A DNA stretch of 64,000 nucleotides from Branchiostoma floridae (lineage: Eukaryota > Chordata > Leptocardii > Amphioxiformes > Branchiostomatidae), in contig NC_049979.1 of assembly GCF_000003815.2 (NCBI RefSeq), positions 3,417,269-3,481,268 of the forward strand, read 5' to 3'. Below, one piece after another: positions 12,017-51,400 of the stretch. How positions within the stretch are numbered: the first letter of the stretch is position 1; the number at the start of each line of letters is the position of its first letter. The notes beneath the pieces were generated by a model. It made no database searches and was not told the DNA's origin. It saw only the letters and a list, made by a program, of their open reading frames with translations. A program made the translations under genes and the position numbers.

Positions 12017-12535
12017 ACTGCGTCTGTATCTGTATCTATATAGCCGGTGTAACCTCCCTTCGGCGTAACACACCAGCTTCTGTATCTGTATCTGTATCTG
12101 TATAGCCGGTATAACCGTCTTCGGCGTAACACACCAGCTTCTGTATCTGTATCTGTATAGCCGATATAACCGCCCTTCGGCGTAACACACCAGCGTCTGT
12201 ATCTGTATCTGTATCTGTATAGCCGGTATAACCACCCTTCGGCGTAACACACCAGCTTCTGTATCTGTATCTATATAGCCGGTATAACCGCCCTTCGGCG
12301 TAACACACCAGCTTCTGTATCTGTATCTGTATAGCCGGTATAACCGCCCTTCGGCGTAACACACCAGCTTCTGTATCTGTATCTACATGTATATGGCCGG
12401 TATAACCGCCCTTCGGCGTAACACACCAGCTTCGCAGGCACGCGGCGCGGCAGCAGCTGGTTATATTACACCGAAGGACCCGTCACACCTACCTTTTGCA
12501 CATCTATCTGCAAGCGTTCTTTAAAACTATCCAGA
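12017..12535. repeat. Minisatellite array (about 7 units of 55-65 bp) with dispersed flank
   Basis: Each unit is a run of TCTGTATC repeats, then TATAGCCGGTATAACCGCCC, then TTCGGCGTAACACACCAGC. The number of TGTATC hexamers varies between units. CCGCCCTTCGGCG-type sequence can form a small hairpin. The 3' flank (12430-12535) matches the flank of the copy at 7755-7975. It is not CRISPR: the whole unit repeats with no unique spacers, and the genome is eukaryotic. The long minus-strand frames here are repeat translations. Confidence 0.85.
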
Positions 12536-31467: not shown

Positions 31468-33956
31468 ATGGCAGTTCTGCTGGTAGTAACCGGACACGGG
31501 CAGCTAGGTAACACGGGGAAGCCCACTGGCTGGTATCTGCCGGAAGTCGCGCATCCCTGGAAGGTCTTCACGGACGCCGGGCTCAAGGTCACCTTCGCCA
31601 GCCCCAAGGGAGGGAAGACGCCGATGGTCAGTAATTCATCTTCTTGGGATTGCATCTTTGTTTCCCCCTTAATGATCCACCGCCTGTCCTGACCCTGTCA
31701 TCATTTAGAATGGGTCAAAAAGTGTAACAGAATTCCTAGCAACAAACGCTGTCCGTCATGTTGGTGTCCCTATTTGCATTTCAGTGAGGCATCACTGAAC
31801 ACAGCGCCGATTGTTTGTTACGACGATATCGCTTTCAAGCAGTCTTGAAGATTTGGAGCTTACATGGCAGTTATCTTAGGATGTCAGAAAATACTCAAAT
31901 GTCCGAAAAACGTATTCGAAATGCAAATAGGTACACCACCATGGTAACCGAACTACCCCTAACCTTAACCCCAACCCTAACCCTAACCCTAACCCCGACT
32001 CCTAACCCTAACCCTAACCCTAACCACAACTCCTAACCCCAACCCTAACCCTAACCCTTACCCAACCCTTACCCAACCCCAACCCTTACCTAACCCTAAC
32101 CCTAACGCCTAACCCTAATGCCTAACCCTAACCCTAACCGCCCTGCAAATGTAAAAATCACATCACGCAAACGTCTCCGTCTCTGTGCTAACAGGACCCT
32201 GGCAGTGCTGAGGCGTTTAAACAGGATCCCATCTGTACGGATTTCCTAAAGAACACGGACATCATGGCCCAGCTGGACAGCACTGCGTCACTGGCTAAGG
32301 TCAAACCAGGGTAAGTTGTCATAATCTCTATATATGGTGTTTTGCTGTCACGTGATTATGACGTAAGCATTGTCCGCCATGTTGAATGGTTAAACCTGGA
32401 TGTTAACCGTTACGAGGTAACTTGATATTGTGAATTTGTCATTACAATTACGAATCCATAGATGTTTTGTCGTCTATTCATTGCCAGATGCCAATCATGT
32501 CAAACTATCCCTGTGAACCAAAAGGCACCAGAAAGGAATTTAGATGTTTTAGCCATCAGTGCATTCGTTGCATTGTACTTTTCGTTTGATAACCCCTCAC
32601 TTTTATACATGTATTCATTTTTTAAAATTTTCCTGTCGTCGCATTCAGCGACTACAAGGCTGTTTTCTTTGCCGGTGGCCACGGTACGATGTGGGACTTC
32701 CCTGATGACGTCAACGTCCAAAAAGTGACCACTGCCGTCTATGAGCAGGGAGGGGTGGTGTCGTCCGTGTGCCACGGCCCGGCAGGTGAGGAGCATCCTA
32801 TCATGATTTGTGTGTCAGAAAAAAACGAAGCCTAGAGATCTCGAGTTCGATACTCGCTGTTCCCCCGACGCTGTGCCATTGGGCCCATTGGGAAAACATT
32901 TTACACGACCTTCCTCACTTCATATACAGGTGTAAAAATGGGTATCTGACTTCGTTTGGGGAGGTAAAAGAAAAGAATCCTTTACTTTGTATGTAGCACT
33001 GTTAATATAAGTTACTAACTTGAGTGCAGTGCTACATTGTCCTCGTCTGTCCGAAAGCAAATAGAAAAAGACAACAACTCGATGCTGTACTTTATTTCCC
33101 CAGCCTTCGTTAACGTGAAGCTGTCGGACGGCAGTTACCTGATCAACGGGAAGAAGCTGACGGGTTTCACCAACAACGAGGAGAACGCGGTGAAGCTGAT
33201 GGAGGTCATGCCTTTCGCCATGGAGACCAAACTCCGGGAGAGAGGCTGCGACTTCGTCGAGGCTCCGCTGTTCACGGAAAACGTGCAGGTACGAATTACA
33301 GCATATATATATATATATATATATAGTCAAACCTGCCCAAGGCGACCACTCAGGAACTGATCTGTCTGGTTGTCATGGACAGGTGGCTATGATAGACAGG
33401 CTTCGTAATACCTCTGTCATTGGAAAATAATGTCAAAGAGACCGATTGTTATACCGGCTATATAGATACAGATATCAGTCGCATTGGCCAGATAAACCTT
33501 ACTCGAAGGTGCTCACTGGCACAGGTTTGACTGTACGTTTCAAGACTCCCCAGTAGTTCCAACGCAGAGGGTCTAGTCTTCGTCTTCAACCGCCTTTTAG
33601 CTACCGTTATGTCGTACAACTGGGCCAGTCATTCGAAACAAGACCAGAGTTGTGGTCAAAAATCCATAATGTACGGCAGATCTTCCTGCGGCAAAATCGT
33701 CGGTCGGAACAGCATCCATGGGTCAACTTAAGATACTTTTCATTCATTGGCCATCAGTGCTCCACTGACTCGGGAGCTTTCATGAGAAACTTGCGACTTT
33801 ATCTTTCTGTATGACCATAGTTGATGTGAAATAGAGTTGATCAATAGTGATCTCGTTGTATTCCTGTATCAGGTGGCAGGCCGCCTTGTGACGGGACAGA
33901 ACCCGGCCTCCGCCACGCCCACAGCAGCGGCAGTCGTCAAGGCCATCAAAGGCTGA
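31468..33956 (+). CDS. DJ-1/PfpI-family protein (type-1 glutamine-amidotransferase-like), copy A
   Basis: A small cytosolic alpha/beta protein of the DJ-1/PfpI superfamily, whose characterised members act as glyoxalase III, protein deglycase or stress chaperone. Coding exons are 31468-31626, 32195-32310, 32649-32785, 33104-33288 and 33873-33956. All have GT/AG borders and compatible phases, and together give 226 aa. Landmarks are MAVLLVVTGHG (first strand), GWYLPEVAHPW with the conserved acidic residue E26, VTFASPKGG, FFAGGHGTMWDFP, and the nucleophile elbow VSSVCHGPA with Cys133-His134. The end is VAGRLVTGQNPASATPTAAA, typical of Hsp31-like class members. Introns hold telomere-like repeats, a SINE fragment and a pogo-like MITE. 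Candidate poly(A) signal ATTAAA is at 34256. The substrate cannot be told from sequence. The start is the only ATG after the 5'-UTR acceptor and matches copy B. Confidence 0.9.
31955..32135. repeat. Interstitial telomere-like (CCCTAA)n tract
   Basis: Runs of CCCTAA are mixed with CCCCAA, CCCTTA and CCCGACT variants over about 180 bases in the first coding intron of DJ-1-like gene A. Gene B lacks it. The degeneracy suggests an old internal site, not a chromosome end. Confidence 0.88.
32835..32945 (+). mobile_element. Truncated SINE
   Basis: A B-box-like GAGTTCGATACTCG is followed by GCTGTGCCATTGGGCCC and TTTTACACGACCTTCCTCAC, the tail type seen in reverse at about 17185-17260. The A-box part is missing. 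It lies just after exon 3 of DJ-1-like gene A. Confidence 0.45.
33296..33324. repeat. (AT)n microsatellite
   Basis: A pure TA run lies directly next to the left end of the element at 33325-33533. Insertion into TA-rich sequence fits a TA-targeting element. Confidence 0.8.
33325..33533. mobile_element. Short pogo/Tigger-like MITE in intron 4 of gene A
   Basis: The left end AGTCAAACCTGCCCAAGG and the right end (reverse complement CAGTCAAACCTGTGCCAG) match each other and the ends of the 902-bp element at 21494-22395. No coding sequence is present. Confidence 0.68.
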
Positions 33957-35081: not shown

Positions 35082-37895
35082 CTACAGAGCAGTCTCCATT
35101 TCAATGATCTCATGAGGAAGCAGTCGCAGTAGCCTGTTTTCTATCCCTTCTGGAGTCGGTCTTGTAGCTGGTACATCGCGCCAACACGACCTCATCAGTC
35201 GGTACAGGTCCTCTGGACATCCCGGCGGCCTCTCCATCCGTATTCCCCTCCTCAGAATCCCTACCATCTGTAGAAAGCTCAGCTGAATCCTGCCATCGTA
35301 GCACGGATCTTTCCCCAGCGTGGCTATCTCCCACAGCAGCACGCCGAAGGACCAGACGTCACTCTGACAGGTGTACTCGCCTGTCTCGATGGACTCCAGC
35401 GCCATCCACTTCAGCGGAAGGAGTTCGTCAACGCCTGGACGGTTGGTTCGTACATACTGAGTAGTGGCGTAGACATCTCTGGCCAGTCCAAAGTCAGCCA
35501 GCTTGGCCACGTCATCGGCAGTGATCAGGACGTTGCGAGCGGCCACGTCACGATGGGCGATTCTCAAGCGTTCCAGCTCTTGAAGACCTCGGGATATGTG
35601 GACTGCGTATCCGAGAAGGCTTCCAAGCAGTTTTATCTGATCGACGTTTCTTATTCCTCGTAAGAACCCGAGCAGATCACCCTTTGGAGCATATTCCAGA
35701 AGAATGTACTTTTCTGCAGACTTGGTGATGAGCCCAACAAGTCGAACAATGTTGGACTCACCAAGACCTCCATTTTGTTCCTGGTGCACTGTTACCAGTA
35801 TGGCTGCTTCTCTGTAGAAGTCTCGGTAGGATTGTGAGTCTTCCACGCGAACTGTCTTGGCGGCCACATCAAGCTGTCCCTCAGGTGTGCGCAGCTGTGC
35901 CCTTCTGACTTGCCCAAACATCCCTTCCCCTATCAGCGGACCAGGAGTAAGATGGCGGATCTTCGTCTCCCAACGTCTGAGCCAGCCTGGCTGTAGCCTC
36001 TGTGCTAGATCCTCCTCCACACGCCTGAGCTCACGGAGAACTTCGGCTTCGTGGTCTTCTTTTTTCGCGAAACAGTCAGTCGTATAGAGGACGATTAGTA
36101 CTAATACGGAAACTATTAAGAGAATGGATCCCAGAGGAACAAGGATTTCAATCAGTGATGTAACCGGAGTGACGTCTAGTTTGTCACAGTTCCTCCCTCC
36201 CCACGGTGGCACACACGCACAGCTGCCGTCCACGTGGTGACAGGTGGCGTTGTTCTTACAGCTGCAAACCTGCCGGCACCGCCAACCGTACCTGCTTTTG
36301 GGACAGGCTCCGTCGCAGTTCGATCCGTACCAGCCGGCCGTGCAGTTACACCTACCGTCGCTAGGGCTACAGCTCGCCCCATTTTGGCAGCCACAGGTCT
36401 TTGCACAGCCTTTACCGTACGTGCCCTCCGGACATTGTGTCTGACACCTGGTTCCCGTCCACCCGGGCGGACACACACAGCCAGCCCACCGGTCACAACT
36501 GGCACTATGTAGGCAATCACACACTTCATCACAAAGTTCGCCTTTTCTATTTGGAGGACAGTTGACGTTTAACACAACAGTTGCATTGAACACTTGTCCG
36601 CCCTTGTCTCTAGCCTGACACGTGTAGCGTCCTTTGTTGTGTAATTGTGCGTTAAAGACGTTTATGTCTAATTGACTTACACCTTTACTCATGATCACAG
36701 ATGCATTTGGAAACCGGAAAGACAAAGTTTCGACATCAATGTGGTACACGCGGCAGTGAATCGTCACGTTGGTGGAAATGTAGATGGCTCGAGAATCGCT
36801 AGGTGTCGTTGTTGCGGCGATGTCAGGTTTAGGAATGTCACAGGCTACACCTTGCCAGCCGTGTTGACATTTACACGCCCCATTAAACCCATGGCAGCGG
36901 GCTCCGTTTTTACAGATGCAGTTTTTATCGCAGAGTAAGCCGTATTTATCCCCGGGACAGCCTTGCGGATGGACTTCCATGTTGAACGACTGCACGTGTA
37001 CAACTTTTGTTAGTGGGGTTCTATCTATTCTGACTGGTTTTCCTAACGGCGGAACTTGGCAGACATACCGCGTTGTACTCTTCATTGGGAATGGCAAAAT
37101 CGCCATACGCATAAACATGTGATGACCTGAATATCTTTCAACAACATATTTCCAATTGAACTTACGAGTATCAGCCATTGACGGTCCATAAGCGGTTTTA
37201 AACTGGTGGAAAGTAAGATCGGGAGCGCTGACGTCTGCACGACAAGACAAGCTATGTAAATTCTCGAACCACAGTTCGCTTGCAACTAGTACATCATGTA
37301 CGTTACGTACAGCCCATATCTGCTGAAACTTGCATTCATCGTTTTCGGCGTCGAAAACTGGTGTCAGACTACTCCAATTCTCAAGAGGCTTGCTTATTGT
37401 CTTCCTAACCACATAAACGTCTCCAGTTTCTGTCTCGGCTTCACCGTTTAAGTCAAGTCTGAACAGAAATTCTCCGGTGTCCTTACCGGCGGGGTTGATC
37501 GGAGTCTCACACGTCTCATTATACACGGGAGGATAGCCCGGGACGTCGGTAACCTGTATCGACACACTTCTGACTTCTCCACGATGCCCGACGCGAATCT
37601 TGATGGTATATTCCGACTGTACTGACCAGTCCAGAGCGTTGGCCACCACAAGGGTGCATTCCTTAGTCAGAAGGAACCTGTCGTACGGATCTCCCTCCGT
37701 TTTCACACACGGAAGTTCCGCTTTCTGCATGCCCAGCCAGTGTCGCACACCGACAACCTCTGTCCCGACTGTAGCATTTTCGGGCACGGAAACGTTAAAG
37801 CTGCGCCCCTCCGCTAACCTGGCTCGACTCAAGACGACGACGACATTAATCAGAAGTGTTAATATCAGGTTAACTGCCATGACGAGGCCGTCCAC
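35082..37895 (-). CDS. Intronless receptor tyrosine kinase with cadherin-like, EGF and Ig ectodomain
   Basis: A single uninterrupted frame of 937 aa. Residues 1-30 are a signal peptide. Residues 33-125 are cadherin-like (SVPENATVGTEV, EYTIKIRV, VTDVPGYPPVYN, with no full DxNDNxP). Residues 126-310 show no recognised domain. Residues 313-353 are EGF-like and 357-445 Ig-like (C381, C426, GRYTCQA). Residues 446-571 hold three Tie/MEGF-type EGF repeats. A membrane helix spans 581-605. The kinase domain is 651-925: GEGMFG loop (656-661), VAAK Lys680, helix-C Glu696, HRDVAARN (781-788), DFGLAR (801-806), loop Tyr809 and Tyr814, KWMALES (829-835), SDVWSFG (845-851). All catalytic residues are present, so activity is expected. 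The C-terminus ETAL fits a class I PDZ ligand. ATGs occur at codons 1 and 6; the first is called. No vertebrate orthologue is assigned. The kinase and EGF-Ig arrangement are nearest Tie receptors. Neighbouring genes have introns, so a retrocopy or intron loss is possible. Confidence 0.92.
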   Translation of the reverse strand: MDGLVMAVNLILTLLINVVVVLSRARLAEGRSFNVSVPENATVGTEVVGVRHWLGMQKAELPCVKTEGDPYDRFLLTKECTLVVANALDWSVQSEYTIKIRVGHRGEVRSVSIQVTDVPGYPPVYNETCETPINPAGKDTGEFLFRLDLNGEAETETGDVYVVRKTISKPLENWSSLTPVFDAENDECKFQQIWAVRNVHDVLVASELWFENLHSLSCRADVSAPDLTFHQFKTAYGPSMADTRKFNWKYVVERYSGHHMFMRMAILPFPMKSTTRYVCQVPPLGKPVRIDRTPLTKVVHVQSFNMEVHPQGCPGDKYGLLCDKNCICKNGARCHGFNGACKCQHGWQGVACDIPKPDIAATTTPSDSRAIYISTNVTIHCRVYHIDVETLSFRFPNASVIMSKGVSQLDINVFNAQLHNKGRYTCQARDKGGQVFNATVVLNVNCPPNRKGELCDEVCDCLHSASCDRWAGCVCPPGWTGTRCQTQCPEGTYGKGCAKTCGCQNGASCSPSDGRCNCTAGWYGSNCDGACPKSRYGWRCRQVCSCKNNATCHHVDGSCACVPPWGGRNCDKLDVTPVTSLIEILVPLGSILLIVSVLVLIVLYTTDCFAKKEDHEAEVLRELRRVEEDLAQRLQPGWLRRWETKIRHLTPGPLIGEGMFGQVRRAQLRTPEGQLDVAAKTVRVEDSQSYRDFYREAAILVTVHQEQNGGLGESNIVRLVGLITKSAEKYILLEYAPKGDLLGFLRGIRNVDQIKLLGSLLGYAVHISRGLQELERLRIAHRDVAARNVLITADDVAKLADFGLARDVYATTQYVRTNRPGVDELLPLKWMALESIETGEYTCQSDVWSFGVLLWEIATLGKDPCYDGRIQLSFLQMVGILRRGIRMERPPGCPEDLYRLMRSCWRDVPATRPTPEGIENRLLRLLPHEIIEMETAL

Positions 37896-38102
37896 TCACA
37901 GGGAGGTTACCGACTGTGGCAAACCGTGAACCCACACGGGGACACTGAAATTGCATCGGCATGTGACAGTCTGCGGTCAGTGTGTGACATCAGCAACCCT
38001 TAATTATCGCCCGAGGCCGAGGAAGTTCCGTTTTTTTACGATCATTGCTCTGTATTCACAACAAGCCTTCGCTAGTTTGATTTTTCATGTGGTTCCAATG
38101 TC
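37872..38102 (-). promoter_or_regulatory. Receptor kinase start and upstream region (duplication unit 1)
   Basis: Includes the first codons of the kinase and about 200 bases upstream: CCACTCACAGGGAGGTTACC, CAAACCGTGAACCCACAC, TAATTATCGCCCGAGG, GCTCTGTATTCACAACAAGC and CTTCGCTAGTTTG. The same order recurs at 38168-38341 and 38861-39046. The core promoter probably lies here. No TATA box is evident. Confidence 0.6.
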
Positions 38103-38167
38103 TCTAATGCCTCTACAAAAGGGTCAAGGACAATTGGAACCCGACTTTCTAAAGACGACGTAGAACT

Positions 38168-38341
38168 GCCATGACGCGGCCGTCCTCTCACAGAGACGTT
38201 ACCGACAGTGGCGAACCGTGCACCCACACAGAGACACTGTCACTGCACCAGCGAGTGATAGTCTGCTGTCAGTGTGTGACGTCGGCATAACATAATTATC
38301 GCCCGAGGAACTTCCGTTTTTCACGATTGCTCTGTATTCAC
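38168..38341 (-). repeat. Duplication unit 2 of the kinase 5' region
   Basis: Matches unit 1 from the ATG-proximal GCCATGACGCGGCCGTCC through GTTACCGACAGTGGCGAACC and CGCCCGAGGAACTTCCG to GCTCTGTATTCAC, where it is cut by the LTR element at 38342. It resumes after the element (ACAACAAGCCTTCGCTAGTT at about 38859). It is a start region without a kinase body. Confidence 0.8.
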
Positions 38342-38856
38342 TGTAGTGATATCAGTAAAATCATCAGTCAAAGAACACCCCCTCCACTTCCTTGTATTTG
38401 TCCATATCTGCATATTTAGTGGCTCAGAATCTTAAGTAATGTCACACCGAGCTTCCCTCTCTTTGCATCCGGAGACCTGCACTGAGCACACACGTATGTC
38501 ATCCCTCTACTAACCATTTGAAATTAAAGTAGCTAGAAGAGTAGTCTCCGTCTAAGTTTCTATCCAAGTCAAGACTATCAACAGGTCACACAACATGGTG
38601 TCAGAAGTGGGATGTGCTGTGCCTTGTTTTGGGTCTGAGCTCCATGCACAGCAGCACTATTGACGGGTTGGGTGATCACCCTCAGGGTGGGCTGGTCCGA
38701 CTCAGAAGTCCTGATCACTCTACAGAATCATCTAATGTCAACTCAGATCCCTTGACGATCAGTTTCACCCTAACTTTGTCTGAGTTGGGGGATGTAGTGA
38801 TATCAGTAAAATCATTAGTCAGAGAACACCCCCTCCACTTCCTCGTGTTAGTCTAG
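38342..38856 (+). mobile_element. Small internally deleted LTR retrotransposon (TRIM-like)
   Basis: A 254-bp left LTR begins TGTAGTGATATCAG and ends CACACAACA (38342-38595). It is followed at once by a primer-binding-site-like TGGTGTCAGAAGTGGGA. A purine tract GAGTTGGGGGA (38782-38792) precedes a second LTR start TGTAGTGATATCAGTAAAAT, truncated after about 64 bases. TCAC occurs on both sides (38338-38341 and 38857-38860). The target can be seen uninterrupted in unit 1 at 38050-38056. No gag or pol is present. Confidence 0.78.
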
Positions 38857-38860
38857 TCAC

Positions 38861-39046
38861 AACAAGCCTTCGCTAGTTTGATTTTCCACGTGGTTCTAAT
38901 ATCCTTGACTGGGCTGTGATCCTTTCAAATCCGATGGCCACAGATTTGCCTGTGTCTTATATCCGGCCATCCACTCACAGGGAGGTTAGCGACAGTGGCA
39001 AACCGTGAACCCACACAGGGACACTGCAACTGCACCGGCAAGTCAA
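38861..39046 (-). repeat. Remainder of unit 2 plus duplication unit 3 of the kinase 5' region
   Basis: AACAAGCCTTCGCTAGTTTG (38861-38880) continues unit 2 past the LTR element. CCATCCACTCACAGGGAGGT through CAAACCGTGAACCCACACAG (about 38966-39020) begins a third copy, which fades by 39046. The ATG position is not preserved as a coding start. Confidence 0.7.
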
Positions 39047-48412: not shown

Positions 48413-51400
48413 ATGGGGAAAATCAAACAGTTCACGATCGCGTTCGAAGACGGGAAGGACGTGTTCGAGGCCGGGGAATGTGTCAAAGGTCACGTAGTCG
48501 TCGAGCTGGCAGAGGATGTGAAGATGAGAGGTAAGGAAGAAGACATCCGAAAGATAGAGTGTCTTAATGTAGGATTAACTTTGTTTTTTTAGTGGCAATA
48601 TTTTGGTTAGAAGGTTAGATGTCCAGGTAATAGGATACAGTGATGAAAGGCAGCGGATGCTGTCTGAAACTTCTGAACATTTCAAAAATAGTATTGAGTT
48701 GCTTGAGTCATTGCTATTTGGCATATACTATAATACATGTATATAAGGGTAATAAAAGTTCAGACTTGTAAAATGATAAGGTAGTTAATTAAGGTCAATG
48801 ACCTGAAAAAGATGACTGTCACCATGGTTACTGGAGGTGTGTCAGAGGTGTTTGATTACATGCAGGTTTGTGGCTGTTGTTCCACGGTCAGAGCGAGGTG
48901 GAGTGGCGGGAGCATGGATCCGATGACAGCTCCGTAACCTACAAGTCTGTAGAGACGTACTTCAAACATGAGGTCACCCTGTTCGGCACAGGTAGGAGTT
49001 TCCTGGAACTATCATAGAATGGAATTCATCACCATCAATTCGCAAGTACTGTAGAGCAGTGCAAATGTTCAAAACTATAGAGGGTAACTCTAGTAGAAGG
49101 CCATTTGCAGATAGATGTGTAAAGGTATTTATTTCGGTGTGACCAGTCATTCAGTATAATCTTAGCTGCTGCTGATGTGTTGCATGCCTACAAAGCTGCT
49201 GTGTTACATATACGTATGATAAAATAATGGCCATGATACTGATACAGAAGCTGGTGTGCTGAAGTGTGGTCTTTTTAATTTCCCATAATTCGTAGGGAGA
49301 GCCGTTGTGATTTGTAGTGAGACAACCAAATTTTACGCAATTGCCTTCCATGATTTGAGCAATTAATATGCAGTTTTTTGTTCTCAATTCAGCATAAAGC
49401 ATTGTTCGGACCCCCCATGCAGACACACCTATAGGTTTATGTTGTACAGTGTAAAATTTCATACAAATGGTTCCATTGCAGCGCGGGAACAAAGCTCGCA
49501 GGGGGACGCTGCGGTGCTGCCCATGGGTCGCCACGTCTTCCCGTTCCAGTACCAGCTCCCCGCGGAGGAACTGCCGTGCTCGTTCGAGGGGGAACACGGT
49601 TACGTTCGCTACATCATCACGGCCACCATCGACAGACCATGGAAGCTCTATCGCACCATGAAGACGTCATTCACGGTTTTGGAAAAAGAGGACGAGAATT
49701 CCAGGGAGGATTTCATTAGAACTGTGAGTTTTACAGACATTGTAGATGTGCGCCAGCTGTTATGTTTATTCTATTGTAAAAAGCTATAGTTTCACTGTGT
49801 TCACTGAGTAACACTTTTTGTACAGTTATCAGCTATCGGAACATAGGGGTGTCGGAACATAGGGGTGTCAGAACATAGGGGTGTCGGAACATTATTAAGG
49901 GGTGTCAGAACATAGGGGTATCGGAACACGAGTGTCTAAACATAGGGGTGTCAGAACATAGGGGTCATCATCATATCTTGTCGCTAAAACTGCATATCCA
50001 GCGGCAGGCTGCCTCATTGGCCTCTCTTAGGTCACTGTCTGAGCAGGTGGGGCCAAGTTTACAGTTTTGCAACAGGTGTTGTATGGTTTGCAGCTCCTCT
50101 CCACATGGGCAGTGGGGTGTGGGAACATAGGGGTGTGGGAACATAGGGGCGTCAGAACATAGGGGTGTCAGAACATAGGGGTGTTGGACATAGGGTGCTA
50201 GGACATACGGTGTACCGAAAGTGCAAAAAGGAACGAAAAGGAGCGAAAAGGAACAAAAAGGAACGAAAAGGAGCAAAAAGGAATGAAAAGGAACGAAAAG
50301 GAAAGTACCGAAAGTGCGAAAAGGAACGAAAAGGAAAGTACCGAAAGTGCGAAAAGGAACGTTGATTTCAATTTGAGGCCTGGTTCCAAAGACTTTTTCT
50401 GCCGAACCTGCACGTGAGACGTGAGTCGCCCGCCAGATCTGTCCGTAGTTTCCCAATATCCTTTGCACAAATTCCTCACGTTGGTCATTTCTTCCCGCAA
50501 AATGATACATCGTGAAGAAAACTCCTTGGTACAATGTATATTTGTCTATCCTTTCACAGCTTTTCTTTTGTCGTGAACGAGCAAGAAGATATGTCTCCAG
50601 TCTCCAGAAAACCATGTTGTTGGCCCTGTTGAATGGAGCTGTCATGCTCGTGGGGCAGCAGTCTATTAGCATATCCTTCCTGACCGGACTTCTATTAGAC
50701 GTAAACAATCGCAGTCTATTTGCATGCGGCGCTCCCATCTTGGGAGAACAGAAGCCACCCAAATACATATACTTTTTTTATCTCAGTTATGTTTTCTTGT
50801 TTTTCGCTGATCTTCAGAGAATAATTTAGCCACACAAACACAACAGCCTAAAACAGCCCCGTAAAAATTTGATATTGCCAAATTCTGAGTAAAATAAAAC
50901 ACGTTTCATAGGCTTCTAACGCCCGCAGTACCGGTTCCTTATATTCTCATTGATTTTATTTTAGTTTGCTTCATACTTCGTTCCTTTTCGCACTTTCGGT
51001 ACCAAAAAAAGCAAAAAGGAACGAAAAGGAAAGTGCCGAAAGTGCGAAAAGGAACGAAAAGGAAAGTACCGAAAGTGCGGAAAGGAACGAAAAGGAAAGT
51101 ACCGAAAGTGTAGTATACTACCAAAGACCCTATAGGTGAAATGGAGAACTATCTAAGGATTTATTACAGATATGTTACAGCTCGATGCGTTTCGACAGTT
51201 TTTGTAATCAAGCTTACGTTACCATTATTACCGCTCCAAATAGAAACAGCAGCCTTGGCGCGTCCGTTATAAGAAAGGGCACAACCAGATGAGTACTTAT
51301 CACCCGCAATTTCGTTCTGCAACCTGTCACTGTTCTATTTTTTTCATCGATTTAGTGCCAAAATTTACTTACGTTACCGCTTGACTTACGTTACCACTAC

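Follow-up and report, generated by a model that had tools for sequence, protein, structure and literature searches.

The receptor tyrosine kinases closest to the gene described here belong to several families with distinct ectodomains. Tie1 and Tie2 (TEK) combine Ig-like and EGF modules and carry FN3 domains next to the membrane, RET has four cadherin-like domains followed by a cysteine-rich domain, and the ectodomain of FGFR1 to FGFR4 consists of three Ig domains. The Drosophila receptor Cad96Ca/Stitcher, compared here by its description only, joins a cadherin repeat to a receptor tyrosine kinase domain and is without an EGF-Ig-EGF3 stalk. We know of no human receptor with the ectodomain order EC-X-EGF-Ig-EGF3, in which EC is a cadherin repeat and X is the domain that follows it. 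A literature search covering titles and abstract openings found no description of a family with this order joined to a tyrosine kinase, although part of it may already be listed in D'Aniello et al., who surveyed the tyrosine kinases of amphioxus in 2008.

The window, meaning the whole 64-kb stretch of DNA that was analysed (C1:3417269-3481268), lies in the 513-Mb, 431-contig genome of Branchiostoma floridae and holds one such gene. Its minus-strand frame runs uninterrupted from ATG to TAG over 932 codons, and the second-longest stop-to-stop frame of the window has 268. The first-pass annotation was right about the single frame, and its count of 937 codons includes five in-frame codons upstream of the ATG. 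The signal peptide (by inspection), membrane helix and catalytic residues that it reported are all present, as are its cadherin, EGF, Ig and triple-EGF modules; what it overlooked is a domain of about 185 residues after the cadherin repeat, the X domain. The features are as follows.

35082..37880, minus strand: receptor tyrosine kinase coding sequence, single exon, 932 codons plus stop (open reading frame list, translation)
37872..38059, minus strand: 5' flank including the start codon, with copies at 38164-38341 and (partial) 38965-39043, found also upstream of paralogue L026
37809..37880, minus strand: signal peptide judged by eye, about residues 1-24
37527..37805, minus strand: cadherin (EC) repeat, residues 26-118 (sequence and fold)
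36966..37526, minus strand: X domain, residues 119-305, the most variable part of the family (paralogue alignment, structure model)
36834..36959, minus strand: first EGF module, residues 308-349 (domain search; pooled dN/dS 0.11)
36567..36833, minus strand: Ig-like domain, residues 350-438 (domain search, PDB match)
36180..36560, minus strand: second EGF array of three modules, residues 441-567, resembling TIE2 EGF1-3 (PDB match)
36090..36152, minus strand: transmembrane helix, about residues 577-597 (sequence)
36020..36021, minus strand: site of the phase-0 GT-AG intron of three paralogues, residues 620/621; no intron in the window gene
35136..35960, minus strand: RD-type tyrosine kinase domain with its catalytic residues, residues 641-915 (domain search, PDB match)
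35085..35093, minus strand: C-terminal T-A-L, class I PDZ-ligand pattern (sequence)

The protein thus has the extracellular domains, the one membrane helix and the tyrosine kinase with catalytic Lys, Glu, HRD and DFG of a receptor tyrosine kinase (Lys675, Glu691, HRD at 776-778, Asn783 and DFG at 796-798). As in Tie1 and Tie2, an Ig domain and three EGF modules form one block, followed by a membrane helix and a tyrosine kinase; the best PDB match of this block is TIE2, with which it is collinear over Ig2-EGF1-3. Unlike Tie, the protein has an N-terminal EC repeat, an X domain and an extra EGF module before the Ig domain, and it is without a third Ig domain. With RET it shares a cadherin-type module and a kinase 40.6% identical in sequence, but it has one EC repeat instead of four with a cysteine-rich domain, and it carries EGF and Ig modules that RET does not have. 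FGFR3 is the closest ordinary kinase in the PDB ranking (194 bits alone, 222 as a profile), where only an EGFR tandem construct, counted twice in its score, stands higher; the three-Ig ectodomain of the FGFRs is missing.

Residues 26-118 show both the sequence and the fold of a cadherin EC repeat. Cadherins carry the calcium motifs LDRE and DxNDN between repeats; these motifs are absent here. The paralogue rows listed (35 of 36) have an LDWS/LDYG/LDFG-type motif and, for the second motif (28 of 36 rows listed), a DVxGYPP-type motif. Most have a PEN-type motif. Sequence searches give no assignment for the X domain (residues 119-305). A structure model of the N-terminal region was built from 41 paralogues, a single-sequence fold of residues 24-312 having been discarded (pLDDT 33.6); the rows listed by a fold search with the paralogue model are filled by cadherin matches, none of them informative for the X domain. 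Judged by eye from strand order, its predicted beta-alpha-beta-beta-alpha-beta core recalls SEA/ferredoxin-like domains. An Ig-like assignment, considered for a Cys-Trp-Cys pattern, is countered by the predicted helices.

The receptor gene is enclosed by a tandem pair of plus-strand genes, DJ-1/PfpI-like and multi-exon, at 31471-33956 and from 41662 to at least 43588. The two are 90% identical over 176 bases around the first coding exon; the DJ-1/PfpI Pfam match is confined to a single exon of the first copy and lies below the cut-off (22.9 versus 26.6 bits). Farther neighbours are an IFT57 gene (minus strand) and an arrestin-domain gene (plus strand). Inside the window, tblastn finds no other match to the receptor below E 1. 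Three partial copies of its 5' flank, adjoining two other short repeats, lie within 37872-39043, a possible duplicated promoter. Tandem repeat arrays occupy 12023-12433, 31953-32139 and 49836-51110 of the window, one of them a chromosome-internal CTAACC-type hexamer array of 31 copies.

Relatives outside the species were sought among human kinases and PDB chains, and the family itself was searched for in the B. floridae genome; within this scope, the lineage specificity proposed in the first-pass annotation may hold. The whole protein yields at least 53 match rows (49 of 750 candidates scored) and the N-terminal region 119 (128 of 128 candidates scored). Eighty-three of the 119 rows, representing 82 distinct loci, have open frames that reach 840 codons or more; these lengths treat masked N as open (the fetched long frames L019 and L032 contain N). 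At least 76 of these loci, on 14 contigs, also have a tyrosine kinase match whose frame is equally long and which lies no more than 3.5 kb away on the same strand; the remaining six have nearby kinase matches only in frames of different length. Two of the six, C12:17734024 and C12:22890913, have identical scores and may be an assembly duplicate. The other 36 N-terminal rows lie in frames shorter than 840 codons, 13 of them in fetched loci, where they are fragments, broken genes and intron-bearing members. Even the three most divergent fetched members (32-37% identity, tblastn) align in one frame over nearly the whole protein, two of them with one EGF module fewer in the second array (by inspection). 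The receptor family proposed in the first-pass annotation is thereby strongly supported, with 82 long-frame loci, 76 of which combine N-terminus and kinase in same-length frames.

Further divergent members lie 120-140 kb from the window gene (C1:3315600-3332019), three of them with frames 917-922 codons long. About 75 kb away, two members of the same subclade, L003 and L026 (C1:3.376 and 3.380 Mb), are both incomplete: in L003 about 89 residues are missing from the start, and in L026 the open frame stops in the membrane helix, with the kinase match in a separate downstream frame. Local decay is therefore under way.

Catalytic residues and disulphide cysteines are under constraint in the family. 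Forty-nine loci were fetched first, and 36 full-length frames without N were used for the alignment; the 13 dropped as truncated, interrupted, intron-bearing or N-holding are L003, L019, L021, L022, L023, L026, L027, L028, L029, L032, L047, L048 and L049. Lys675, Asp778, Asn783 and DFG are invariant in all 36 paralogues, Glu691 is present in 35 of them, and the ectodomain cysteines persist in 35 or 36. Pooled dN/dS is 0.36 overall, 0.25 in the kinase, 0.11 in the first EGF module, 0.43 in the cadherin repeat and 0.45 in both the X and Ig domains, computed from at most 15 chosen pairs, of which 10 to 15 per domain remain after removal of undefined or saturated dS. The invariant catalytic residues and ratios well under 1 strongly support, at the level of sequence, the function that had been thought probable for this gene.

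The X domain stands out in the C12, C7 and C8 groups, where its synonymous and nonsynonymous divergence is several-fold above that of most flanks. Gene conversion homogenising the flanks would give such an excess, and misalignment of a fast domain would push in the same direction. We considered positive selection on the X domain and set it aside: windows within it give dN/dS of only 0.18-0.90 and single pairs at most 1.06 (two C7 gene pairs, 0.95 and 1.06), and misalignment may inflate both rates. Five short windows outside the X domain reach 1.0-1.45. Ratios near or above 1 in these windows and pairs fit local relaxation as well as function.

The kinase was compared with 18 human kinase domains, a reference set without ROR, DDR, ALK and others. 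It is 32-42% identical to them, with FGFR4, FGFR3, TIE1 and RET highest. In a tree with 42 family kinases, the family is split from all 18 with support 100 (89 at the node after re-rooting) and stands beside, not within, the group of TIE, FGFR, VEGFR/PDGFR and RET (joint group 96, exclusion 90); a second tree, of nine family members plus two C16 kinases that resemble TIE2, gives 79 and 71, respectively. In AU tests with nine members, sisterhood to FGFR (0.003) and to VEGFR/PDGFR (0.001) is rejected, whereas SH (0.17) rejects neither; KH gives 0.013 for FGFR. AU does not reject sisterhood to TIE (0.355), TIE plus C16 (0.27), C16 (0.27), RET (0.21), MET/AXL (0.19), INSR (0.13) or TRK/MUSK (0.06). 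The PDB ranking had pointed to an origin from FGFR; the nine-member AU test rejects it, but SH does not, nor does the single-sequence AU test (0.14), which rejects only VEGFR/PDGFR and SRC/ABL. The phylogeny against Tie, RET and FGFR that had been called for earlier thus separates the family from the human kinases and leaves sisterhood to Tie and to RET unrejected by AU. As judged from these trees, the kinase is probably a separate lineage beside TIE, FGFR, VEGFR/PDGFR and RET.

The gene could instead be a divergent lancelet Tie, one from which Ig3 and FN3 disappeared and to which a cadherin repeat was added. The collinear Ig-EGF3 block and the unrejected TIE sisterhood would agree with this, but a domain search up to E 1 finds no FN3 in the protein, whose EGF array ends near residue 567 with the helix starting about 10 residues later, at about 577, the free trees place the family outside the group that contains TIE, and the best genome matches of human TIE2 are two other genes on C16; we therefore regard a Tie origin as quite unlikely. 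These two genes (L054, C16:16614000-16620300) lie on opposite strands, and their kinases are closest to human TIE2 (45-46%, 247 bits); one has Ig domains and the other is largely masked. They were also considered as a parent of the receptor gene and rejected, the readable one having Ig domains and no EGF or cadherin module by eye, and the other being partly masked. That the window gene is a young processed retrocopy whose decay is yet to come would explain its single exon amid multi-exon neighbours. This is highly improbable: paralogues with an intact single frame number in the dozens and range down to about 32% identity, comparisons with L002 and L004, both intact, give dN/dS of 0.31 and 0.37, a neighbouring paralogue has a common 5' flank, and no multi-exon parent was seen.

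The question of origin then concerns the family as a whole. Its intronless state is not universal: L047, L048 and L050 share a phase-0 GT-AG intron of 336, 369 and 430 bases, respectively, between membrane helix and kinase. An intron-containing vertebrate orthologue of the same architecture had been named beforehand as a refuting finding; what was found goes weakly in that direction, namely three examined paralogues with one intron, in B. floridae only and not in vertebrates. L025, the tandem neighbour of L050, is without the 430-bp intron exactly at the splice sites, and precise intron loss (or gain) therefore occurs in the family. This would fit a history in which introns were shed piecemeal at the DNA or cDNA level, instead of one retroposed founder. 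In the kinase tree, however, the intron-bearing genes form one clade with the intronless L024 and L025 (support 100), and other members without the intron (L052/L053, L051 and the C7/C8 arrays) fall outside this clade, the C7/C8 order with support of 69 only, so that a single gain with two losses is more economical than about six losses of an ancestral intron; the members read are also without any other intron. Piecemeal shedding is thus rather unlikely. The intronless state is older than most of the radiation sampled.

Retroposition, which the first-pass annotation offered for the family as an alternative to intron loss, may have taken place, although its hallmarks were looked for and not found. 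The gene has the single exon of a retrogene, but searches of its own genome (with 13 of the 36 short rows in loci read) show no multi-exon parent, and neither a poly-A tract nor a target duplication was found. There is no AATAAA or ATTAAA within about 1.5 kb past the stop; AATAAA is not enriched in the 3' flanks of the paralogues (24 of 36, versus 27 of 36 antisense), so the missing signal carries little weight. Among the fetched loci, the 5' flank is shared by L026, the sole other match (L003) being an overlap of the fetched stretch with the same place, and the L026 copy therefore arose by DNA duplication. For the family, one retroposed founder followed by DNA duplication would be the likeliest origin. 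The amphioxus SYCP1 retrogene is similar in being a single coding exon of ~3200 bp that is multi-exon in most animals and whose parent is lost; unlike the family here, it is one gene that replaced its parent, with no expanded family (PMC5803294).

The frame is probably a functional single-pass receptor tyrosine kinase gene, belonging to a large family of the B. floridae genome whose members mostly lack introns. In such a receptor, the N-terminal EC repeat and the variable X domain may bind a ligand or a partner on a neighbouring cell, and the EGF-Ig-EGF stalk would keep these binding domains off the membrane. Binding would gather receptors, whose kinases could then trans-phosphorylate the activation-loop pair Tyr804/Tyr809, kept in 36 of 36 and 34 of 36 paralogues. 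Since the window protein has no tyrosine in residues 601-684 nor after 893, output would probably run through sites within the kinase and a PDZ scaffold on the C-terminal T-A-L, and less through SH2 sites in the tail. A class I PDZ-ligand pattern ends 27 of the 36 paralogues; the divergent L051 ends in ETTV, and L052 and L053 are without the pattern.

The window gene and L051-L053 have the HRD motif. HGD or HCD replaces it in 18 of the 36 aligned members (16 C7/C8 genes plus L024 and L025) and in the intron-bearing L047, L048 and L050, and the other catalytic residues persist throughout the 36 aligned members, apart from Glu691 (35 of 36). Kinases without the HRD arginine are reported to be linked to innate immune signalling across kingdoms (PMC8463890). 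By analogy, the loss of this arginine in two groups (C7/C8 and L024/L025-like) might parallel the non-RD immune receptor kinases of plants, and at least 76 apparently intron-free receptor kinases with a variable X domain on homogenised stalks and kinases might form a recognition system, be it microbial, allorecognition or cell identity. We offer the two ideas jointly as a speculative reading that is unlikely as it stands.

The observation is confirmed, and it is larger than could be predicted from the window sequence alone: both a family and its constraint were found. The human genome encodes about 58 receptor tyrosine kinases altogether. If true, a family of at least 76 in one invertebrate chordate would mean that receptor tyrosine kinase repertoires can grow like those of odorant or immune receptors. 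The family would also serve as a natural experiment on how ectodomains diversify, how tandem genes lose introns and how animal receptor kinases of the non-RD type signal.
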